64,000 bases of DNA from an uncultured SAR116 cluster alpha proteobacterium (lineage in GTDB: Bacteria > Pseudomonadota > Alphaproteobacteria > Puniceispirillales > Marisalimonadaceae): positions 22,191 to 86,190 of the forward strand of contig CACCZR010000001.1 of NCBI GenBank assembly GCA_902550555.1. The letters are read 5' to 3'. The translations under genes and the position numbers were made by a program. The notes under the pieces are model-generated. The model had not been told where the DNA came from. It made no database searches and saw only the letters and a list, made by a program, of their open reading frames with translations. The number at the start of each line of letters is the position of its first letter. The first letter of the stretch is position 1. Below are positions 39,934 to 47,252 of the stretch, piece after piece.

Positions 39934-40100
39934 TTTATTAAAATTGTTTTCAAATTTTTAAAACTTTTTTTAAATGCGTCTGAATTTATTCGACTCTGAC
40001 TGATTATTTCGTCAAGGAGGTAGTTCCAAAAAATAAATCCTGTCATATAGTAGATTTTGATCTTTTGGAGATAATTTTAGATTTAAAAAAAAATATAAGA

Positions 40101-41171
40101 TTAATTGATACTTCTTAAATAATTAACTGCATTATTTTTTTTATAAAAGTTTTTTAGTGGAACAATATATTTTTTGTCATCATTAAAAGAGAATAGTCCG
40201 TAGATATTATAACTCATATCCCATCCTATTGAACCTCCACTATAATCACCAACGGAAATTAAAAAAGATGCCTCACATTTTCCAAAGATATGAGGTGCAA
40301 GATTTTTACAATTTTTGAGAGGTATCTTAGATAAGATAGTATAAGAATATTCTGTACAAGAAGACTTAGTTGAACAAATTTTATTATGAATAGATTTATT
40401 AATTATTTTTGGATCAACATTAGTTGTTTTAACTATACCACCACCTCTTAAATTACCTTTAAAACAATCTTTTAGTGATGCTGCTAGATAAATTTTTTCA
40501 TCCCACGAGGTATTGATAGGTTCTAGATTAGGTATTTCCTTACCTAAAAATTTTCCTGGATTATTTAAAAAATCATTATAATTTTTGATGTCGAACTTTT
40601 CTGAAAATTCTTCATAATTATCACCAGAAATCCATTTGGTTGAGAAACATTGAGGTGGGATAATCTTTTCAGATACTTTCCAACCAATAGGTAATTTTTT
40701 TTCTGAAATTATTTCTTTTTTTGCACCCAAAATTGAAAAAATATACCATTTATTTTTATCTTTATCTTTGTTGAACCATATAGATCCGTTATCAAGCATA
40801 AATCCTCGCCATCCAACCGGCGAACAAGGAGATTTGCTTTCAAGTAAACTATTTCGCCATTTGTCAGAAAAAATATCAGAGAACTTCTTATTATTTACAA
40901 AGTCTTTTCTTGGACCAGAAGTTAATTCTCCTTCAACAAGATTAAATATACTTTTAAGGTTTTTTTCTTTAACTAATTTTTTGATAGTTTCACCAAAGTT
41001 ATATGCTTCTTCGGGATCGTAGTAATTCTTCCAAAATTCTGCATACTTTCTATCTTTTTCTACACAGTTTAAAGCACTTTTTTCTTTACTCAAAGTTAAG
41101 GAAGAATTTAAGCAAAACATAATTGTAAGAATTAGAATATATATATTTTTCATAATCGTACTCCAATACAA
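40101..41171 (-). CDS. secreted hypothetical protein, Cys-containing
   Basis: Signal peptide MKNIYILILTIMFCLNSSLTLS; no recognised family. Confidence 0.75.
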   Translation of the reverse strand: MYWSTIMKNIYILILTIMFCLNSSLTLSKEKSALNCVEKDRKYAEFWKNYYDPEEAYNFGETIKKLVKEKNLKSIFNLVEGELTSGPRKDFVNNKKFSDIFSDKWRNSLLESKSPCSPVGWRGFMLDNGSIWFNKDKDKNKWYIFSILGAKKEIISEKKLPIGWKVSEKIIPPQCFSTKWISGDNYEEFSEKFDIKNYNDFLNNPGKFLGKEIPNLEPINTSWDEKIYLAASLKDCFKGNLRGGGIVKTTNVDPKIINKSIHNKICSTKSSCTEYSYTILSKIPLKNCKNLAPHIFGKCEASFLISVGDYSGGSIGWDMSYNIYGLFSFNDDKKYIVPLKNFYKKNNAVNYLRSIN

Positions 41172-41236
41172 ATTATTATTATTAGTAAAAAAATTTGATC
41201 TTTCAACTATGGTAAATATTAAATACCCCCTTGCCG

Positions 41237-41256
41237 AACTATTCCACGGTAACGGA
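41237..41256 (-). repeat. glmS 3'-end repeat copy 1 (putative att site)
   Basis: aactattccacggtaacgga; minus strand TCC GTT ACC GTG GAA TAG = SVTVE*. Confidence 0.85.
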
Positions 41257-41368
41257 ATGGATTCAAAGTTACTATATTTATATAAATTTATAAAATTTAA
41301 TTTTTATTTAAAAATTTTACTTCAAAAAAATATTTAACAAATATACCTAACTTAGTTAGAATTGAGAG

Positions 41369-41707
41369 ATGAAAAGTATATTTGTTTCATTAATCTTATT
41401 ATTTTTTTTATCAAGTTGTACTTCTAAATTAGATCATGAGAAAACTTTAAACTCATGGATAGGTTCTAAAGAAAGTACATTAGTTGAACAATGGGGAACT
41501 CCATCGAATTTTTATAAAACTGATGATGGTAAAAAGTTTTTAACTTGGAAAAATAGTTCACAATATTTGATAGGTGGTGGATATAATTATGGATATGGAT
41601 ATAACTATCCATACTTAGTAACTTCTAACTGTGATATTACGATGATAATTGAAAAAGGAATAGTTACTTCTTGGAGATATAAAGGAAATAACTGTTACGA
41701 TTATTAA
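41369..41707 (+). CDS. lipoprotein, hypothetical (SmpA/OmlA-like flavour)
   Basis: Lipobox LLFFLSSC; GSKESTLVEQWGTPSNFYKTDDGKKFLTW; GYNYGYGYNYPY tract. Confidence 0.75.
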   Translation: MKSIFVSLILLFFLSSCTSKLDHEKTLNSWIGSKESTLVEQWGTPSNFYKTDDGKKFLTWKNSSQYLIGGGYNYGYGYNYPYLVTSNCDITMIIEKGIVTSWRYKGNNCYDY

Positions 41708-41719
41708 AACAAACCTTAA

Positions 41720-42115
41720 TCAGTTTGTTTGAGTAATTTTAAATAAACTTCCATATTTTGTATCAACTGATGGTTCAATTATAAATTTATAAATTTTACC
41801 CTTAGTTGTGTTAATTACTAATGGATATTTCCCTGGACTTAAAAAACCTTCAACTTTAATTGTAGTTTTTCCATCTGTAGGTAAATCATAATAAAAACTA
41901 CTTCCATTAGTTAATTTTGTTAAAACTTGTCCATTAACTTCAATAAGAACATCTACACCAAGAAATAAAAACTTTTCTTTTCTATCAAAAATTAATCTTA
42001 CGTTATCTTTTCCAACTGTTTTTTCATCATAAAAACTTTTAGGAATATTACTTGTAGTTACACAGGAAAATAAAAAGAATAGAGGTAGTAATAATATTAT
42101 AAATTTTTTTTTCAT
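41720..42115 (-). CDS. lipoprotein, hypothetical
   Basis: Lipobox LFFLFSC; DUF2846-like appearance. Confidence 0.75.
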   Translation of the reverse strand: MKKKFIILLLPLFFLFSCVTTSNIPKSFYDEKTVGKDNVRLIFDRKEKFLFLGVDVLIEVNGQVLTKLTNGSSFYYDLPTDGKTTIKVEGFLSPGKYPLVINTTKGKIYKFIIEPSVDTKYGSLFKITQTN

Positions 42116-42595
42116 TTAAATTTTGTTTTCCAATGTTTTTTGTTTATAAAGATTTTCATATTTTCCTTTTACATCTTTCATTTTTTTTTTAAAAACTTCT
42201 TTTGAATAAACTTTACATTGATATATTCCAATAAGTTTTGTATGAGAAATTTCTTTAAGTTTTAAAGTTTTTCTATCTAACTCATATCTTAAATCTATAG
42301 TTCCCCAATCAATTTTTTTTGAATTTGTAATAAAATCTATTGGAGAATCCCTTTTTATTAAAAATTCGTCATTTTTCATATATATATAATTAAAAACGAC
42401 TTTGTTATCATTGAAAACAAATCCTATTTGTAATGTGAGAAGATTTCCATCTTTATCTCTTACGTTTTTATCTATAAATTCATCTTTTAATTTACCATCT
42501 TCGTATTTACAGACTATTCCTTTCCCATTTGGATTTCCAAAAGAAGGAAATGTTTGAAGTAATAATACTAATATAATGAGTAGTATCTTTTTCAT
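42116..42595 (-). CDS. secreted hypothetical protein
   Basis: Signal peptide MKKILLIILVLLLQTFPSFG. Confidence 0.7.
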   Translation of the reverse strand: MKKILLIILVLLLQTFPSFGNPNGKGIVCKYEDGKLKDEFIDKNVRDKDGNLLTLQIGFVFNDNKVVFNYIYMKNDEFLIKRDSPIDFITNSKKIDWGTIDLRYELDRKTLKLKEISHTKLIGIYQCKVYSKEVFKKKMKDVKGKYENLYKQKTLENKI

Positions 42596-42966
42596 TTAAA
42601 TCTTATTAAATTCATCATTTCTGAAGAGGGGATTTGAGTATAAAATTTACCTCCACCAAATATTGACATAATTGGGTAAGTTTCTATTGGTGTTAAATCG
42701 ACCTTTACAGTTCCATTTCTACTATTCTTAGAAAAAAAAACGTCAGTTTCTACTTTTTGTCCAAGAAATGTAAAAGTAAGAGGTAGATTTATCCCATCTA
42801 TTTTAATATTTTGGTAACCATTTTTTTCAAACATTTCTAAAACAGAATCTTTGACAGTTTGTTCATTATGTTGATGTTGTTGATAACCAACATAACCAAT
42901 AAAGATAATTAAAATTATAATTATAAATCTCATCAAGATATTATAACGAATAAAGAACAAAAACAA
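42592..42966 (-). CDS. hypothetical protein with N-terminal TM
   Basis: MRFIIIILIIFIGYVGYQQ; overlaps start of downstream ORF. Confidence 0.65.
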   Translation of the reverse strand: MFLFFIRYNILMRFIIIILIIFIGYVGYQQHQHNEQTVKDSVLEMFEKNGYQNIKIDGINLPLTFTFLGQKVETDVFFSKNSRNGTVKVDLTPIETYPIMSIFGGGKFYTQIPSSEMMNLIRFK

Positions 42967-43020
42967 AAATAATACTTACTCCAATCATCATCAAAAACTT
43001 CTTATAGACTTCCCACATTA

Positions 43021-43407
43021 TTATTTATTTTCTTTCCAAAACTTTTCTACATACAAACTTTCTCTGATAAATAATATTTTATCTTTGTTTCTTTGTAATC
43101 TCTTTTTGTATTTCTGAATTATTCCCCAAACCAACTTTGGTGTATATTCTTTTTTGGTTCTAAGGGTCTTAAGTTTTTTTAATGAAAGATATTCACAAAT
43201 TTCTTTATTAGTTAAACCGTTTTTGTGAAGATTATAAATTAGGTCTAACCTTTTAAGTCTTTCATTTCCTATCCAAAACAAACCTAATTTGTTAGTTTGG
43301 ATTATTACTTGGAATCGAAAATAAAATTTGTAATCAAAGATAGTACTTTTAAATCTATTCCACCGTAACCGAATTGTTCGGAACGGACTTTTCCAGTTGT
43401 CGGGCAA
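43021..43407 (-). CDS. small HTH-like DNA-binding protein at element right end (5' reading frame uncertain across putative att site)
   Basis: LDLIYNLHKNGLTNKEICEYLSLKKLKTLRTKKEYTPKLVWGIIQKYKKRLQ; aligns by eye with the unlisted frame at 45067-45416. Confidence 0.6.
   Translation of the reverse strand: MPDNWKSPFRTIRLRWNRFKSTIFDYKFYFRFQVIIQTNKLGLFWIGNERLKRLDLIYNLHKNGLTNKEICEYLSLKKLKTLRTKKEYTPKLVWGIIQKYKKRLQRNKDKILFIRESLYVEKFWKENK
43355..43372 (-). repeat. glmS 3'-end repeat copy 2 (putative att site)
   Basis: ctattccaccgtaaccga; minus strand TCG GTT ACG GTG GAA TAG = SVTVE*. Confidence 0.85.
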
Positions 43408-43549
43408 TCAATGCTTTTTTTGCTCGTTCATTCACTTCAAAAATTTTAAATATATTTAAATATTATAGTAATTTTATTATTGTCTTACTTAAAAATTTTA
43501 TATGGATTAAATTTTGTTATCAAATAAATTTTTAGAAAGTGAGATTATA

Positions 43550-43756
43550 ATGAAAAATTTAACAACTGCTCAAGCAATATTAATTGGATTAGGAATGATT
43601 GCCCTTGCAATTGCATCAATACCATATTCACCCAAAATAGTTACACCAGCGTTTTCTAAAACACAAGTTCAAAAAATTTCTATTTGTGATGCAAGAGGAT
43701 TTAATTGTACAAGAATTAATAATTCTGGTGAACTTTTAGTCGCAAATAATAAATAA
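43550..43756 (+). CDS. small exported/membrane hypothetical protein
   Basis: MKNLTTAQAILIGLGMIALAIASIPYSPKIVTPAFSKTQVQKISICDARGFNC; start moved from the track's 43514. Confidence 0.6.
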   Translation: MKNLTTAQAILIGLGMIALAIASIPYSPKIVTPAFSKTQVQKISICDARGFNCTRINNSGELLVANNK

Positions 43757-43786
43757 ATTTAAATACAATATATTATTATTTATAAT

Positions 43787-44995
43787 CTATAAATCTCGTT
43801 TCTTTTTGGTGTTACTTTTTTTTGCTTGTTTTGCCATCATTCTATACATGGGTGCGATACCAGCAGTAGTTTTTTGACAAACTTGATAAGTTTTTGATTT
43901 ATCTAAGGCACTCATCATTCTTAACTGACCTTGATATTCACTATCCCTATCTAATTTTGCTAATGCTTTGTCATATGCTTTATCTTTGAAAGAGGAAATT
44001 TTATCGTTCGGAATTTCTGCTTCACTAATTAGTTTGTCTAAAATGATTTTTACATCTTTTTTAAATTCTTTAAAATGCCCAGATGACTTATGCTCTTCAC
44101 AATAACCAGAAATTTTTAAGTAATTTTCATATACACTAACTACATTATTTAACGCTTGGTGTGGTTTAAGTATTTTTACAATTAACTCATCTGATTTTTT
44201 CTTTGACAAGACTTTTCCAGTTATTTGGAATTTATCTTTAATACTTTTCCTTGTTCCTTTAAAACTTTTGAAGTCCTTACTGAAAGTCAATTTAAGATTA
44301 AGTTTGTCACCATTAGATTTCTCTATAATACCAATTAAACTTTTATCATCTAAAATAATTTTTTTTATTTCAGATATTAATTCTTTTTTTGAACTTGTAA
44401 TTATTTTTTCAGTACCAACTAACTTACCATTTTTAATTTTAAACGTAACTACAATCGGAATTATATAATCTCTATATATATGTTTTCCTGTGTATAATTG
44501 GTTAGCAATTAGATTGTAATTATTATTTTTTTTAGTATTTTCTGCAGACTTAGTAGTAATCTTACTAAATTCTGCTAAAGATATTTGTGGATATCCATCA
44601 TTGAGAAATTGAAATTTACCAATTTGTTTATTGTTTTTGAATTTTCCCCTATAAGTTTTGTTACTCTTAGCGGAGTATACAATAGCATTCTCAGGTAATT
44701 GTCCTTTATTCCAAACTCCAAATACCATAATATCCTTGTCCAAATATTCCATTAAACCTTTTCCATGTGGCAATCCATTCTTAAAATTTCCTAGATAATT
44801 CTGAGTTTTTTCAAACAAATATTCTCCATAACAATCTGAATATTTTGGGACTTCGTCACAATGAATTTCTTTGGGGTGATTCTTAACATCATTTGCTAAA
44901 AAATCTTCAAACAAGTCAGCATATGAAAAAGATGAAATAAAAAGAGTAAATAGAATTAATAATAAGTAGGATAAATATTTTTTTAAAATAGACAT
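43787..44995 (-). CDS. secreted MORN-repeat-containing hypothetical protein
   Basis: Signal peptide; MORN-like YLGNFKNGLPHGKGLMEY and TYRGKFKNNKQIGKFQF. Confidence 0.75.
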   Translation of the reverse strand: MSILKKYLSYLLLILFTLFISSFSYADLFEDFLANDVKNHPKEIHCDEVPKYSDCYGEYLFEKTQNYLGNFKNGLPHGKGLMEYLDKDIMVFGVWNKGQLPENAIVYSAKSNKTYRGKFKNNKQIGKFQFLNDGYPQISLAEFSKITTKSAENTKKNNNYNLIANQLYTGKHIYRDYIIPIVVTFKIKNGKLVGTEKIITSSKKELISEIKKIILDDKSLIGIIEKSNGDKLNLKLTFSKDFKSFKGTRKSIKDKFQITGKVLSKKKSDELIVKILKPHQALNNVVSVYENYLKISGYCEEHKSSGHFKEFKKDVKIILDKLISEAEIPNDKISSFKDKAYDKALAKLDRDSEYQGQLRMMSALDKSKTYQVCQKTTAGIAPMYRMMAKQAKKSNTKKKRDL

Positions 44996-45066
44996 AAATT
45001 TATTTTTTCATATGGAAAAAAAACTTTCAACTTTTTTTAACTAAAATCATTAAATTAAAATTAGAT

Positions 45067-45416
45067 TTACTTAGTAAATTCAACCCACATTTTACTTCTT
45101 ACAATTGGGTATCTGGTATTTCTGAACTTCATGTTCTCTTGTCTTTGTCTGTATCTTTTTAGAACAGAGAAAACATTAGTGTTTTTCCAGACATGACCAC
45201 CGTCAGTTTTCATGCCCCTATCATTCAGTATCTTTGCAATTCTTCTGTACCCAATCCCATTGTCATGAAGTGATTTAATTATCTTATAAACTTCATGTTG
45301 ATTGTCTGAATATCTGTTTGGATTTTGAATTGGAATTAGGTGATTAAACTGGGTTGAAACCTCAAAAAAGAGATAGTTCGCATATTCAGATTCGTGATTT
45401 AAAAGTCCATTCCAAA
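45067..45416 (-). pseudogene. 5'-truncated HTH-like DNA-binding gene abutting glmS (not in ORF track; no start codon)
   Basis: Open frame from glmS 3' end: YRGIVWNGLLNHESEYANYLFFEVSTQFNHLIPIQNPNRYSDNQHEVYKIIKSLHDNGIGYRRIAKILNDRGMKTDGGHVWKNTNVFSVLKRYRQRQENMKFRNTRYPIVRSKMWVEFTK*. Confidence 0.75.
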
Positions 45417-45434
45417 CTATTCCACGGTAACAGA
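45415..45434 (-). repeat. glmS 3' end, repeat copy 3 (putative right att site)
   Basis: aactattccacggtaacaga; minus strand TCT GTT ACC GTG GAA TAG = SVTVE*. Confidence 0.85.
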
Positions 45435-47252
45435 CTTTGCTAAATTTCTTGGTTGATCAACATCGGTTCCTCTTTCCCTAGCAACGTGATAAGCAATTAA
45501 TTGAGCTGGTATTGACATAAAAATTGGAGAAAAAACATCATTCCAAGTATCATTAAAAGTTGGAACTAAAACTTTATTTTCTATAAAAGATATCTTATTT
45601 ATATTTTTTTGATCTGAAACCAAAAATACCTTCCCCCCTCTTGCCAATGCCTCTTGAAGATTAGATATAGATTTTTCTTCCATTCCATCCGAGGTCAAAA
45701 ACATTATTATTGGCAAACCTTCTTCAATAAGAGCAATTGGTCCATGTTTCATCTCACCAGCAGCAAAACCCTCAGAGTGTATGTAGCTTAATTCTTTAAG
45801 TTTTAATGCTCCTTCTAATGCCAAGGGGTAAAGTATTCCTCTACCAAGATAGAGAATATTTTGGCTATTTTTAATAGATTGAGCTAAGTTTATAAATTCT
45901 TCATTGAGTGATAAAATTTTAGATAAAAAGTTTGGTACTAATTTTAAGTTTTGGATAAAATTCTGATATTTTTCTAGCGATATTTTTTTATTATACATTC
46001 CAATTTTCATTGCAATAGATAATAAAACTATTAACTGAGAGGTAAAAGATTTTGTGCTTGCAACTCCGACTTCAGGTCCAACATGGGTGAATATAGAGTA
46101 ATCAGCTTCTCTATCAATTGAACTATTTTCTACATTTGTTATTGCTGTTGTTGTCAAATTTAATCTTTTTGCTTCTCTCATTGCCATTAAAGTATCAATA
46201 CTCTCTCCTGATTGAGAGATAACTATCATACATGAATACATTGCTGTAGCAGGGCTTCTATACCTGTATTCAGATGAAAGTTCTACATTTACTGGAATAG
46301 ATGAAAATTTTTCAATCCAATATTTTCCAACCATAGCAGCATAGTGACTGGTTCCAGCTGCACAAATTGTGATGCCAAAGTTTTTTTGTATATTCATTTT
46401 TTCTGGAAAAATATTTAAGTCATTTTCTTCTCTTACTAAATTACCAATAGTGTTAATTAACACATTAGGCTGTTCATGGATTTCTTTTTCCATAAAATGT
46501 TTATATCCATCTTTATTTAAAAAATTTAAATTTGACTTAATATTTATCTTTTCTCTTTTAACTTTATTATTGTTAAGATCATAAATTTGGAAATTTGTTT
46601 TGTTTAAAATAGCATAATCACCGTCGTTTAAATAAATTACTTCATTTACCATATGTGAAATGGACTGAGCATCAGAGCCTACAATATTATAACCATCACC
46701 TAATCCTATAACTAAAGGTGATGTTTTTCGAGCAACAAAAATCTCTTCTTTTAAACTATGAATAGCAGCAAAGGCATATGCTCCTTCAATTTTTTCAACT
46801 ACTGAAACACAAGCATTAAAGAAATTATTAGTATTTTTCATTGAAATACTTAATAAATGTGGAATTACTTCCGTGTCAGTTGATGTTTCAAAAACAACAT
46901 TCTTTTCTTTTAATTCTAAACGTATTTGATCGTGGTTTTCAATAATACCGTTATGAACTACGGCAACATTTTCAGATAAAATTGGATGTGTGTTTTCTAA
47001 TAAAACTTTTCCATGAGTTGCCCAGCGAGTATGGCCTATTGCAATTGAAACATCTTTTATCTCTTCTGCCAAAACTTCAAATTTAGAATTTAATTTATTT
47101 AATTTTCCTAGAGCTTTAATTGTATTAAGGTGGCTCTTTTGTAAATAAGCTAATCCAGCAGAATCATAACCTCGGTATTCTAGATTTTTTAAAACATTTA
47201 AAGCACTTTTACACGCATTTAATTTTCCAACTATACCGACTATACCACACAT
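45417..47252 (-). CDS. glmS: glutamine--fructose-6-phosphate aminotransferase (isomerizing)
   Basis: MCGIVGIVG, GHTRWATHGKV, EKEIHEQPNVLINT, DQPRNLAKSVTVE*. Confidence 0.98.
   Translation of the reverse strand: MCGIVGIVGKLNACKSALNVLKNLEYRGYDSAGLAYLQKSHLNTIKALGKLNKLNSKFEVLAEEIKDVSIAIGHTRWATHGKVLLENTHPILSENVAVVHNGIIENHDQIRLELKEKNVVFETSTDTEVIPHLLSISMKNTNNFFNACVSVVEKIEGAYAFAAIHSLKEEIFVARKTSPLVIGLGDGYNIVGSDAQSISHMVNEVIYLNDGDYAILNKTNFQIYDLNNNKVKREKINIKSNLNFLNKDGYKHFMEKEIHEQPNVLINTIGNLVREENDLNIFPEKMNIQKNFGITICAAGTSHYAAMVGKYWIEKFSSIPVNVELSSEYRYRSPATAMYSCMIVISQSGESIDTLMAMREAKRLNLTTTAITNVENSSIDREADYSIFTHVGPEVGVASTKSFTSQLIVLLSIAMKIGMYNKKISLEKYQNFIQNLKLVPNFLSKILSLNEEFINLAQSIKNSQNILYLGRGILYPLALEGALKLKELSYIHSEGFAAGEMKHGPIALIEEGLPIIMFLTSDGMEEKSISNLQEALARGGKVFLVSDQKNINKISFIENKVLVPTFNDTWNDVFSPIFMSIPAQLIAYHVARERGTDVDQPRNLAKSVTVE

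Follow-up and report, generated by a model that had tools for sequence, protein, structure and literature searches.

The 3′ end of glmS in an uncultured alphaproteobacterium of the SAR116 cluster very probably carries a tandem array of cassettes that resemble the staphylococcal cassette chromosome (SCC) and are moved by a serine recombinase, with the crossover at an AC dinucleotide in the last codons of the gene; we put the probability of this reading at about 0.85. The array lies in a 64,000-nucleotide stretch of DNA, hereafter the window (contig CACCZR010000001.1 of assembly GCA_902550555.1, positions 22,191–86,190, forward strand). A sequence-only reading of the window had reported three direct copies of the 18-nucleotide end of glmS, differing at two wobble positions, and had taken them for attachment (att) sites of two tandem units carrying a core that rebuilds the coding end. 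New here are the glmS target in three proteobacterial classes, the mapping of the crossover, and a candidate 3′ fragment of the recombinase gene.

Each cassette is flanked on both sides by a 22-bp att spacer, NNNN TCN GTN AC N GTN GAR TRR, and has its own terminal inverted repeats, which differ in sequence among cassette types and keep a fixed register. Across 116 cassettes, drawn from genomes that are mostly incomplete single-cell or metagenome assemblies, the left end and the reverse-complemented right end agree at 9.5 of 16 positions at one offset and at ~4.6 at all others. The dyad centre of the repeats falls between the A and the C of the 22-bp spacer, at the invariant AC of TCNGTNACNGTNGARTRR. 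Crossover within two base pairs at a dyad centre is the pattern of serine recombinases (PMC3783163). A second signal comes from 188 sites, in which core positions 1–6 covary with the left flank (the right end of the upstream cassette) and positions 9–18 with the right flank (the left end of the downstream cassette), the linkage switching between positions 6 and 9. Permutation gave p ≤ 0.001 for positions 3, 6, 9, 12 and 18, each with its expected flank only, although the linkage and permutation tests count related sites as separate, which makes the p-values indicative. Positions 7–8, the AC itself, are invariant by definition of the search; cores with an altered AC occur at background level. 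This switch in linkage places the crossover at the AC and means that a cassette donates the GlmS codons Val-Glu-stop. As read from sequence, linkage and repeat symmetry are two independent lines that agree on strand exchange at the AC.

The two halves of the core are constrained unequally. Across SAR116 relatives, the glmS strand holds 113 displaced cores with an intact AC and right half, where three control strands give ~4; coding changes affect the left half in 65 of the 113. Among cores with an intact left half, only 3 show a single right-half change and 2 an altered AC. Such a bias is expected if the right half turns into the end of glmS whenever its cassette sits first, and it explains why the sequence-only reading saw differences at wobble positions only; its proposal that the core rebuilds the coding end is borne out by the linkage of the core halves to their flanks. 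The same data bear on the idea that the core copies are target-site duplications left at glmS by an inverted-repeat transposon, Tn7- or casposon-like. Such an element would account for terminal inverted repeats, a single target and one orientation, but fresh duplications would match on both sides, whereas here the left and right halves of the core go with different neighbours, and only one of them is held to its coding sense. Among the cassettes inspected none had a recognisable transposase gene, and LSRs (large serine recombinases) are present. We regard a transposon origin as very improbable, and plain target-site duplication was rejected on half-core linkage and asymmetric constraint.

In the window, the three 18-mers are the sole matches at ≤3 mismatches (0.07 would be expected, and none of 100 shuffles reached 3), and the 1.6-Mb draft genome as a whole has no further exact match to the pattern. 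Their positions, shared orientation and two wobble differences all hold, and the copy at 45417–45434 is the genuine end of glmS. To these we add a fourth, decayed core at 39986–40003, absent from the sequence-only reading, which differs by one constrained-base change. With it, the window has three cassettes (2,044, 2,098 and 1,235 bp) rather than two units. The features, in the order of the array, are as follows.

45417–47252, minus strand: glmS, the host target gene, with its last codons (Thr wobble, Val, Glu, stop) supplied by cassette 1.
45417–45434, minus strand: att core 1, the glmS end, TCT GTT AC/C GTG GAA TAG.
43373–45416, minus strand: cassette 1, 2,044 bp.
45401–45416, minus strand: left inverted repeat of cassette 1, TTTGGAATGGACTTTT.
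45070–45414, minus strand: start-less open reading frame (ORF) of cassette 1, 115 aa, PF07508-like winged helix, frame +2 to glmS.
43787–44995, minus strand: cargo of cassette 1, a 402-aa protein with a signal-peptide-like start and a MORN-like repeat.
43377–43392, plus strand: right inverted repeat of cassette 1, TTCGGAACGGACTTTT.
43355–43372, minus strand: att core 2, TCGGTTACGGTGGAATAG.
41257–43354, minus strand: cassette 2, 2,098 bp, with four small ORFs as cargo, several with signal-peptide or lipoprotein-like starts.
43339–43354, minus strand: left inverted repeat of cassette 2, ATTTAAAAGTACTATC.
43024–43353, minus strand: start-less winged-helix ORF of cassette 2, 110 aa, frame +1, dN/dS 0.17 against G026.
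41261–41276, plus strand: right inverted repeat of cassette 2, ATTCAAAGTTACTATA.
41239–41256, minus strand: att core 3, TCCGTTACCGTGGAATAG.
40004–41238, minus strand: cassette 3, 1,235 bp.
41224–41238, minus strand: left inverted repeat of cassette 3, TTCGGCAAGGGGGTA.
40101–41150: gene of cassette 3, a 349-aa exported-protein-like product.
40008–40022, plus strand: right inverted repeat of cassette 3, TTCGTCAAGGAGGTA.
39986–40003, minus strand: att core 4, decayed, TCAGTCAGAGTCGAATAA, a former glmS end that is still linked to glmS in the congener G006.

Past the fourth core, the segment 39025–39985 starts with the repeat-like ATTCAGACG. It could represent an older cassette, for which no further right boundary turned up.

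In the congener G006 the glmS junction is unoccupied: the DNA that lies past site 4 in the window there comes straight after the glmS stop (90% identity over 972 nt). When the window glmS is cut after the A of the central AC and spliced to the sequence that starts at site 4, the result matches G006 at 451 of 505 positions, with no gap at the junction. The glmS gene ends in TCTGTT plus ACAGTCGAATAA in G006 and in TCTGTT plus ACCGTGGAATAG in the window, and the old G006-type right half is stranded at window site 4 as AGAGTCGAATAA, with one base changed. Content between the cores also varies. Cassette 1 is shared by the window and another genus, G039, where a counterpart behind glmS matches it end to end at 92.2% identity; the identity stops at the cassette borders, and the GlmS of G039 is 54% identical to that of the window. 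DNA in G015 matches cassette 3 at 92% identity, the GlmS proteins there and in the window being 61% identical. Across ten congeners the left halves at the end of glmS are nearly constant, the right halves and the DNA after them vary, and each congener has different cassettes behind the gene. In relatives from the same family and order, the loci behind glmS contain up to seven tandem copies, the glmS end counted, all on the glmS strand, and in every genome examined the site is the glmS 3′ end.

Since excision was not directly observed, one might suppose that the array is an immobile tract, produced by ancestral duplication or gene conversion of the glmS end. The empty-site allele in G006, the full-length cassettes at 92% identity across genera, and the different cassettes in each congener make this scarcely credible. 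The empty site and the transferred cassettes, outcomes of two checks that might have refuted the sequence-only reading and did not, support it instead in taking the 18-mers for att sites of elements arrayed in tandem at the end of glmS; that reading overlooked the fixed-register inverted repeats, the crossover at the AC, the serine-recombinase system and the putative splitting of the recombinase gene. At the second att site behind glmS, two genomes (L055 in G022 and L061 in G024) have a cassette of 42 bp, or 60 bp with the core, that consists of the two inverted repeats only and resembles a minimal non-autonomous unit.

Some arrays carry an LSR of about 550–580 aa with PF00239 and PF07508 domains (G021), accompanied in Zwartia by a PF13408 zinc ribbon. 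Almost every LSR-bearing locus examined has the LSR as its last gene, on the same strand and with the stop within about 60 bp of the core, and two LSRs (Zwartia, Polynucleobacter) terminate in their own SVTVE. A serine recombinase of ~200 aa lies directly beside the LSR in G015, G021, G027 and Gamma_G154, and near it in Zwartia, Polynucleobacter and Rhodocyclaceae; no resolvase partner was seen in the ORF lists of the Limnohabitans and Pseudomonadales islands. The closest named loci to the array LSRs belong to the SAR116 single-cell genomes AG-426-I14, AG-915-E09, AG-892-O16 and AG-343-K16, which coincide with relatives of the window at family and order level. Relatives also occur outside SAR116, where glmS islands of about 5–15 kb were found in three cultured Betaproteobacteria (Zwartia panacis KCTC42751, Limnohabitans sp. 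15K and Polynucleobacter sp. 30F-ANTBAC) and in metagenome-assembled genomes (MAGs) of Gammaproteobacteria, Pseudomonadales and Rhodocyclaceae. Islands in these Beta- and Gammaproteobacteria follow one plan, in which the glmS core and the left repeat are succeeded by the winged-helix ORF, the cargo, the LSR, the right repeat and a core. Within Burkholderiales the LSR was present in only 2 of 400 genomes, one being the reference, and phage and plasmid records yielded no LSR relatives. An Anderseniella MAG has a different layout (L170, 840–2471), with a related LSR gene that is convergent with glmS and overlaps its 3′ end from the opposite strand.

The position of the LSR also bears on whether a tyrosine recombinase or an integron-type integrase moves the cassettes, with the LSR as ordinary cargo. 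Tyrosine-recombinase-like ORFs of ~200 aa are present in the Limnohabitans and Pseudomonadales glmS islands (L206, L209), and no LSR was detected in the draft genome to which the window belongs, both of which would suit such an enzyme. As last gene, the LSR abuts the core in nearly every LSR-bearing locus examined in Alpha-, Beta- and Gammaproteobacteria, and a 2-bp crossover at the dyad centre is again the serine-recombinase pattern (PMC3783163), attC-type sites not having been looked for. On balance, we find movement by a tyrosine or integron-type enzyme improbable.

Directly inside the left repeat, cassettes carry an ORF of about 110–125 codons that encodes a PF07508-like winged helix-turn-helix (wHTH) and runs in frame +1 or +2 to glmS. 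Canonical start codons are missing from 27 of 56 copies over the interval that begins 40 codons upstream and ends 15 codons inside the ORF. Purifying selection acts on the ORF (median dN/dS 0.26; 93 of 99 pairs, which are non-independent), and its AlphaFold model is a confident, helix-rich domain with a mean pLDDT of 85.5. Circularisation, as predicted, would bring the LSR at the right end up against the wHTH ORF at the left end. The joined frame, which would place att within the recombinase reading frame, was measured from a run of six to ten A residues (A6–A10) near the LSR end through the junction, and is open in 10 of 10 LSR elements, against 1 of 20 for the other two frames; Fisher's test gives about 4e-7, a value that is indicative, the elements being related and the run chosen after inspection. 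A frameshift is required in nine of the ten. Among 37 cassettes with clear repeats and a wHTH ORF, with or without an LSR, the frame of the ORF stays open across the right repeat and core in 35, compared with 16 of 37 in the control.

From these frames we lean, by a little, toward a bacterial LSR gene that contains its own attP. An LSR–wHTH protein would be made only from the circle, through −1 slippage on the A-run; integration would remove the C-terminal domain, and cassettes that lack an LSR would keep the 3′ exon as a specificity domain that an upstream LSR can borrow. Several observations count against this picture or against the recombinase system behind it. The direction of the shift is not uniform, being −1 in eight elements, +1 in G015 and none in G068. 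The A-run as shift site is itself inferred and was picked post hoc, the first of two runs being taken in the Rhodocyclaceae element, and homopolymer lengths are possibly wrong in single-cell assemblies. A fold search of the Protein Data Bank with the wHTH model returned no significant match. Two junction patterns searched in 151 relatives gave no free circle, both matches being array junctions of two adjacent cassettes with similar repeats. Finally, the draft genome of the window (69% complete) contains no resolvase-domain match, so that its cassettes would have moved in trans.

The wHTH ORF could instead encode an independent small protein, for example a directionality factor, that starts at a non-canonical codon by att, its match to the LSR frame being incidental. 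Purifying selection on the ORF in LSR-less cassettes too, its retention without an adjacent LSR, and a possible ATG, GTG or TTG at or near the border in some copies would all fit. A short gene needs no open frame upstream, yet the frame is open in 35 of 37 cassettes and in all ten LSR elements, and nearly half of the copies have no canonical start; we consider this alternative rather unlikely. Two simpler readings were rejected: translation of the ORF from its own canonical start, as no consistent start exists, and fusion to glmS by frameshift, as internal copies away from glmS still keep the frame. PF07508-like matches were also seen on the strand opposite the array (G001:C12:841-984, G011:C26:3007-3144 and G018:C31:8816-8965), perhaps wHTH ORFs at right ends that read inward.

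As a whole, the favoured mechanism runs as follows. The sequences show that an incoming cassette gives glmS new Val-Glu-stop codons and that the old glmS end moves to the far side. The LSR, with its 2-bp central overlap, and the ~200-aa partner would perform the reaction. Recombinases would be carried by autonomous cassettes only, the LSR-less cassettes of the window probably being moved in trans. On the excised circle, the LSR gene is predicted to run through attP into the wHTH ORF, usually by −1 slippage on a conserved run of A8–A10; in our view, integration would break the LSR–wHTH protein and so give the reaction its directionality. The weakest step is the last, in which the wHTH ORFs of LSR-less cassettes in the array may serve as swappable specificity domains.

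The cargo of the window cassettes consists of small exported or lipoprotein-like genes with no family match above cut-off. Elsewhere, cassettes carry restriction-modification genes of types I, II, IIG and III, as well as GmrSD. Anti-phage defence cargo of these kinds was noted in cassettes at L037, L038, L044, L064, L131 and L134 (many SAR116 cassettes). Genes resembling HUH-type replication proteins (PF23343) score above cut-off in a Gammaproteobacteria MAG and below it in G015. Betaproteobacterial glmS islands include a clamp-loader-like ATPase (L205, 4301–5615; L207, 4909–5550), and the Zwartia island encodes a T4 gp45-like sliding clamp and a 1,490-aa helicase-nuclease. The arrays point to a widespread route by which the abundant, mostly uncultured SAR116 bacteria and some freshwater Betaproteobacteria gather and swap small cassettes at an essential gene that stays unbroken. 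Wobble-only variation makes the crossover readable from natural sequences, and LSRs whose att sites are short and protein-coding are of interest as integration tools.

Integron gene cassettes, likewise small and bounded by recombination sites, line up head to tail in arrays that grow at a fixed anchor. Judged from att structure only, the glmS arrays give no evidence of IntI or attC, and they are set apart by a symmetric double-strand att, a coding core and a housekeeping-gene anchor. Tn7-like elements use the conserved glmS end as target and insert downstream of the stop with a 5-bp duplication, whereas the exchange point here is within the glmS coding end. In keeping with LSR systems, the enzymes have resolvase and Recombinase domains, and the crossover maps, from sequence, to a central dinucleotide. 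A search of open-access full text found no relevant literature on glmS LSR islands.

SCC, including SCCmec, and the Enterococcus cassette chromosome are described, in the sections of PMC6222049 available to us, as LSR islands in the last codons of the essential rlmH, with inverted repeats at att, multiple attR sites and variable cargo. The glmS cassettes work like SCC, with both direct and inverted repeats at att, without being members: the SCC target is rlmH, in Firmicutes, and the elements are larger (PMC6222049, same sections). NCBIfam equivalog scores are below cut-off, the Zwartia LSR reaching 84.4 bits for SCCmet_CcrB (cut-off 900) and 73.5 for CcrA (700), and the G021 LSR 30 bits for CcrA. 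Those sections describe no SCC recombinase gene split by att (PMC6222049).

The nearest described layout, likened on that ground, is that of the Dehalococcoides ssrA islands, which, in the parts of PMC3146451 used here, lie in tandem and have copies of a single essential gene's 3′ end as borders. There, DsiB, an LSR of ~540 aa, is accompanied by DsiA, a serine recombinase of ~200 aa; many islands have no recombinase of their own, and the 3′ end of dsiB always overlaps att, for which the authors proposed completion on the circle or by the 3′ fragment of a neighbouring island (PMC3146451). The glmS islands match them in combining an LSR with a ~200-aa serine recombinase and in having the LSR 3′ end at att, and differ in target, a protein-coding end in Proteobacteria rather than ssrA (tmRNA). 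Those parts of PMC3146451 mention no 3′ exon, fixed-register inverted repeats or A-run for the ssrA islands, and the wHTH ORF is a candidate for the missing 3′ piece of dsiB-type recombinases that they noted in 2011. Archaeal suicidal integrases (SSV1, pTN3, pT26-2), of the tyrosine type, have att inside the recombinase gene, which is split on integration, and a review calls such self-disrupting recombinases exclusive to archaea (PMC8371274). If our reading of the frames is true, they would extend to a bacterial serine recombinase, one that, unlike its archaeal counterparts, would lose a C-terminal extension only.

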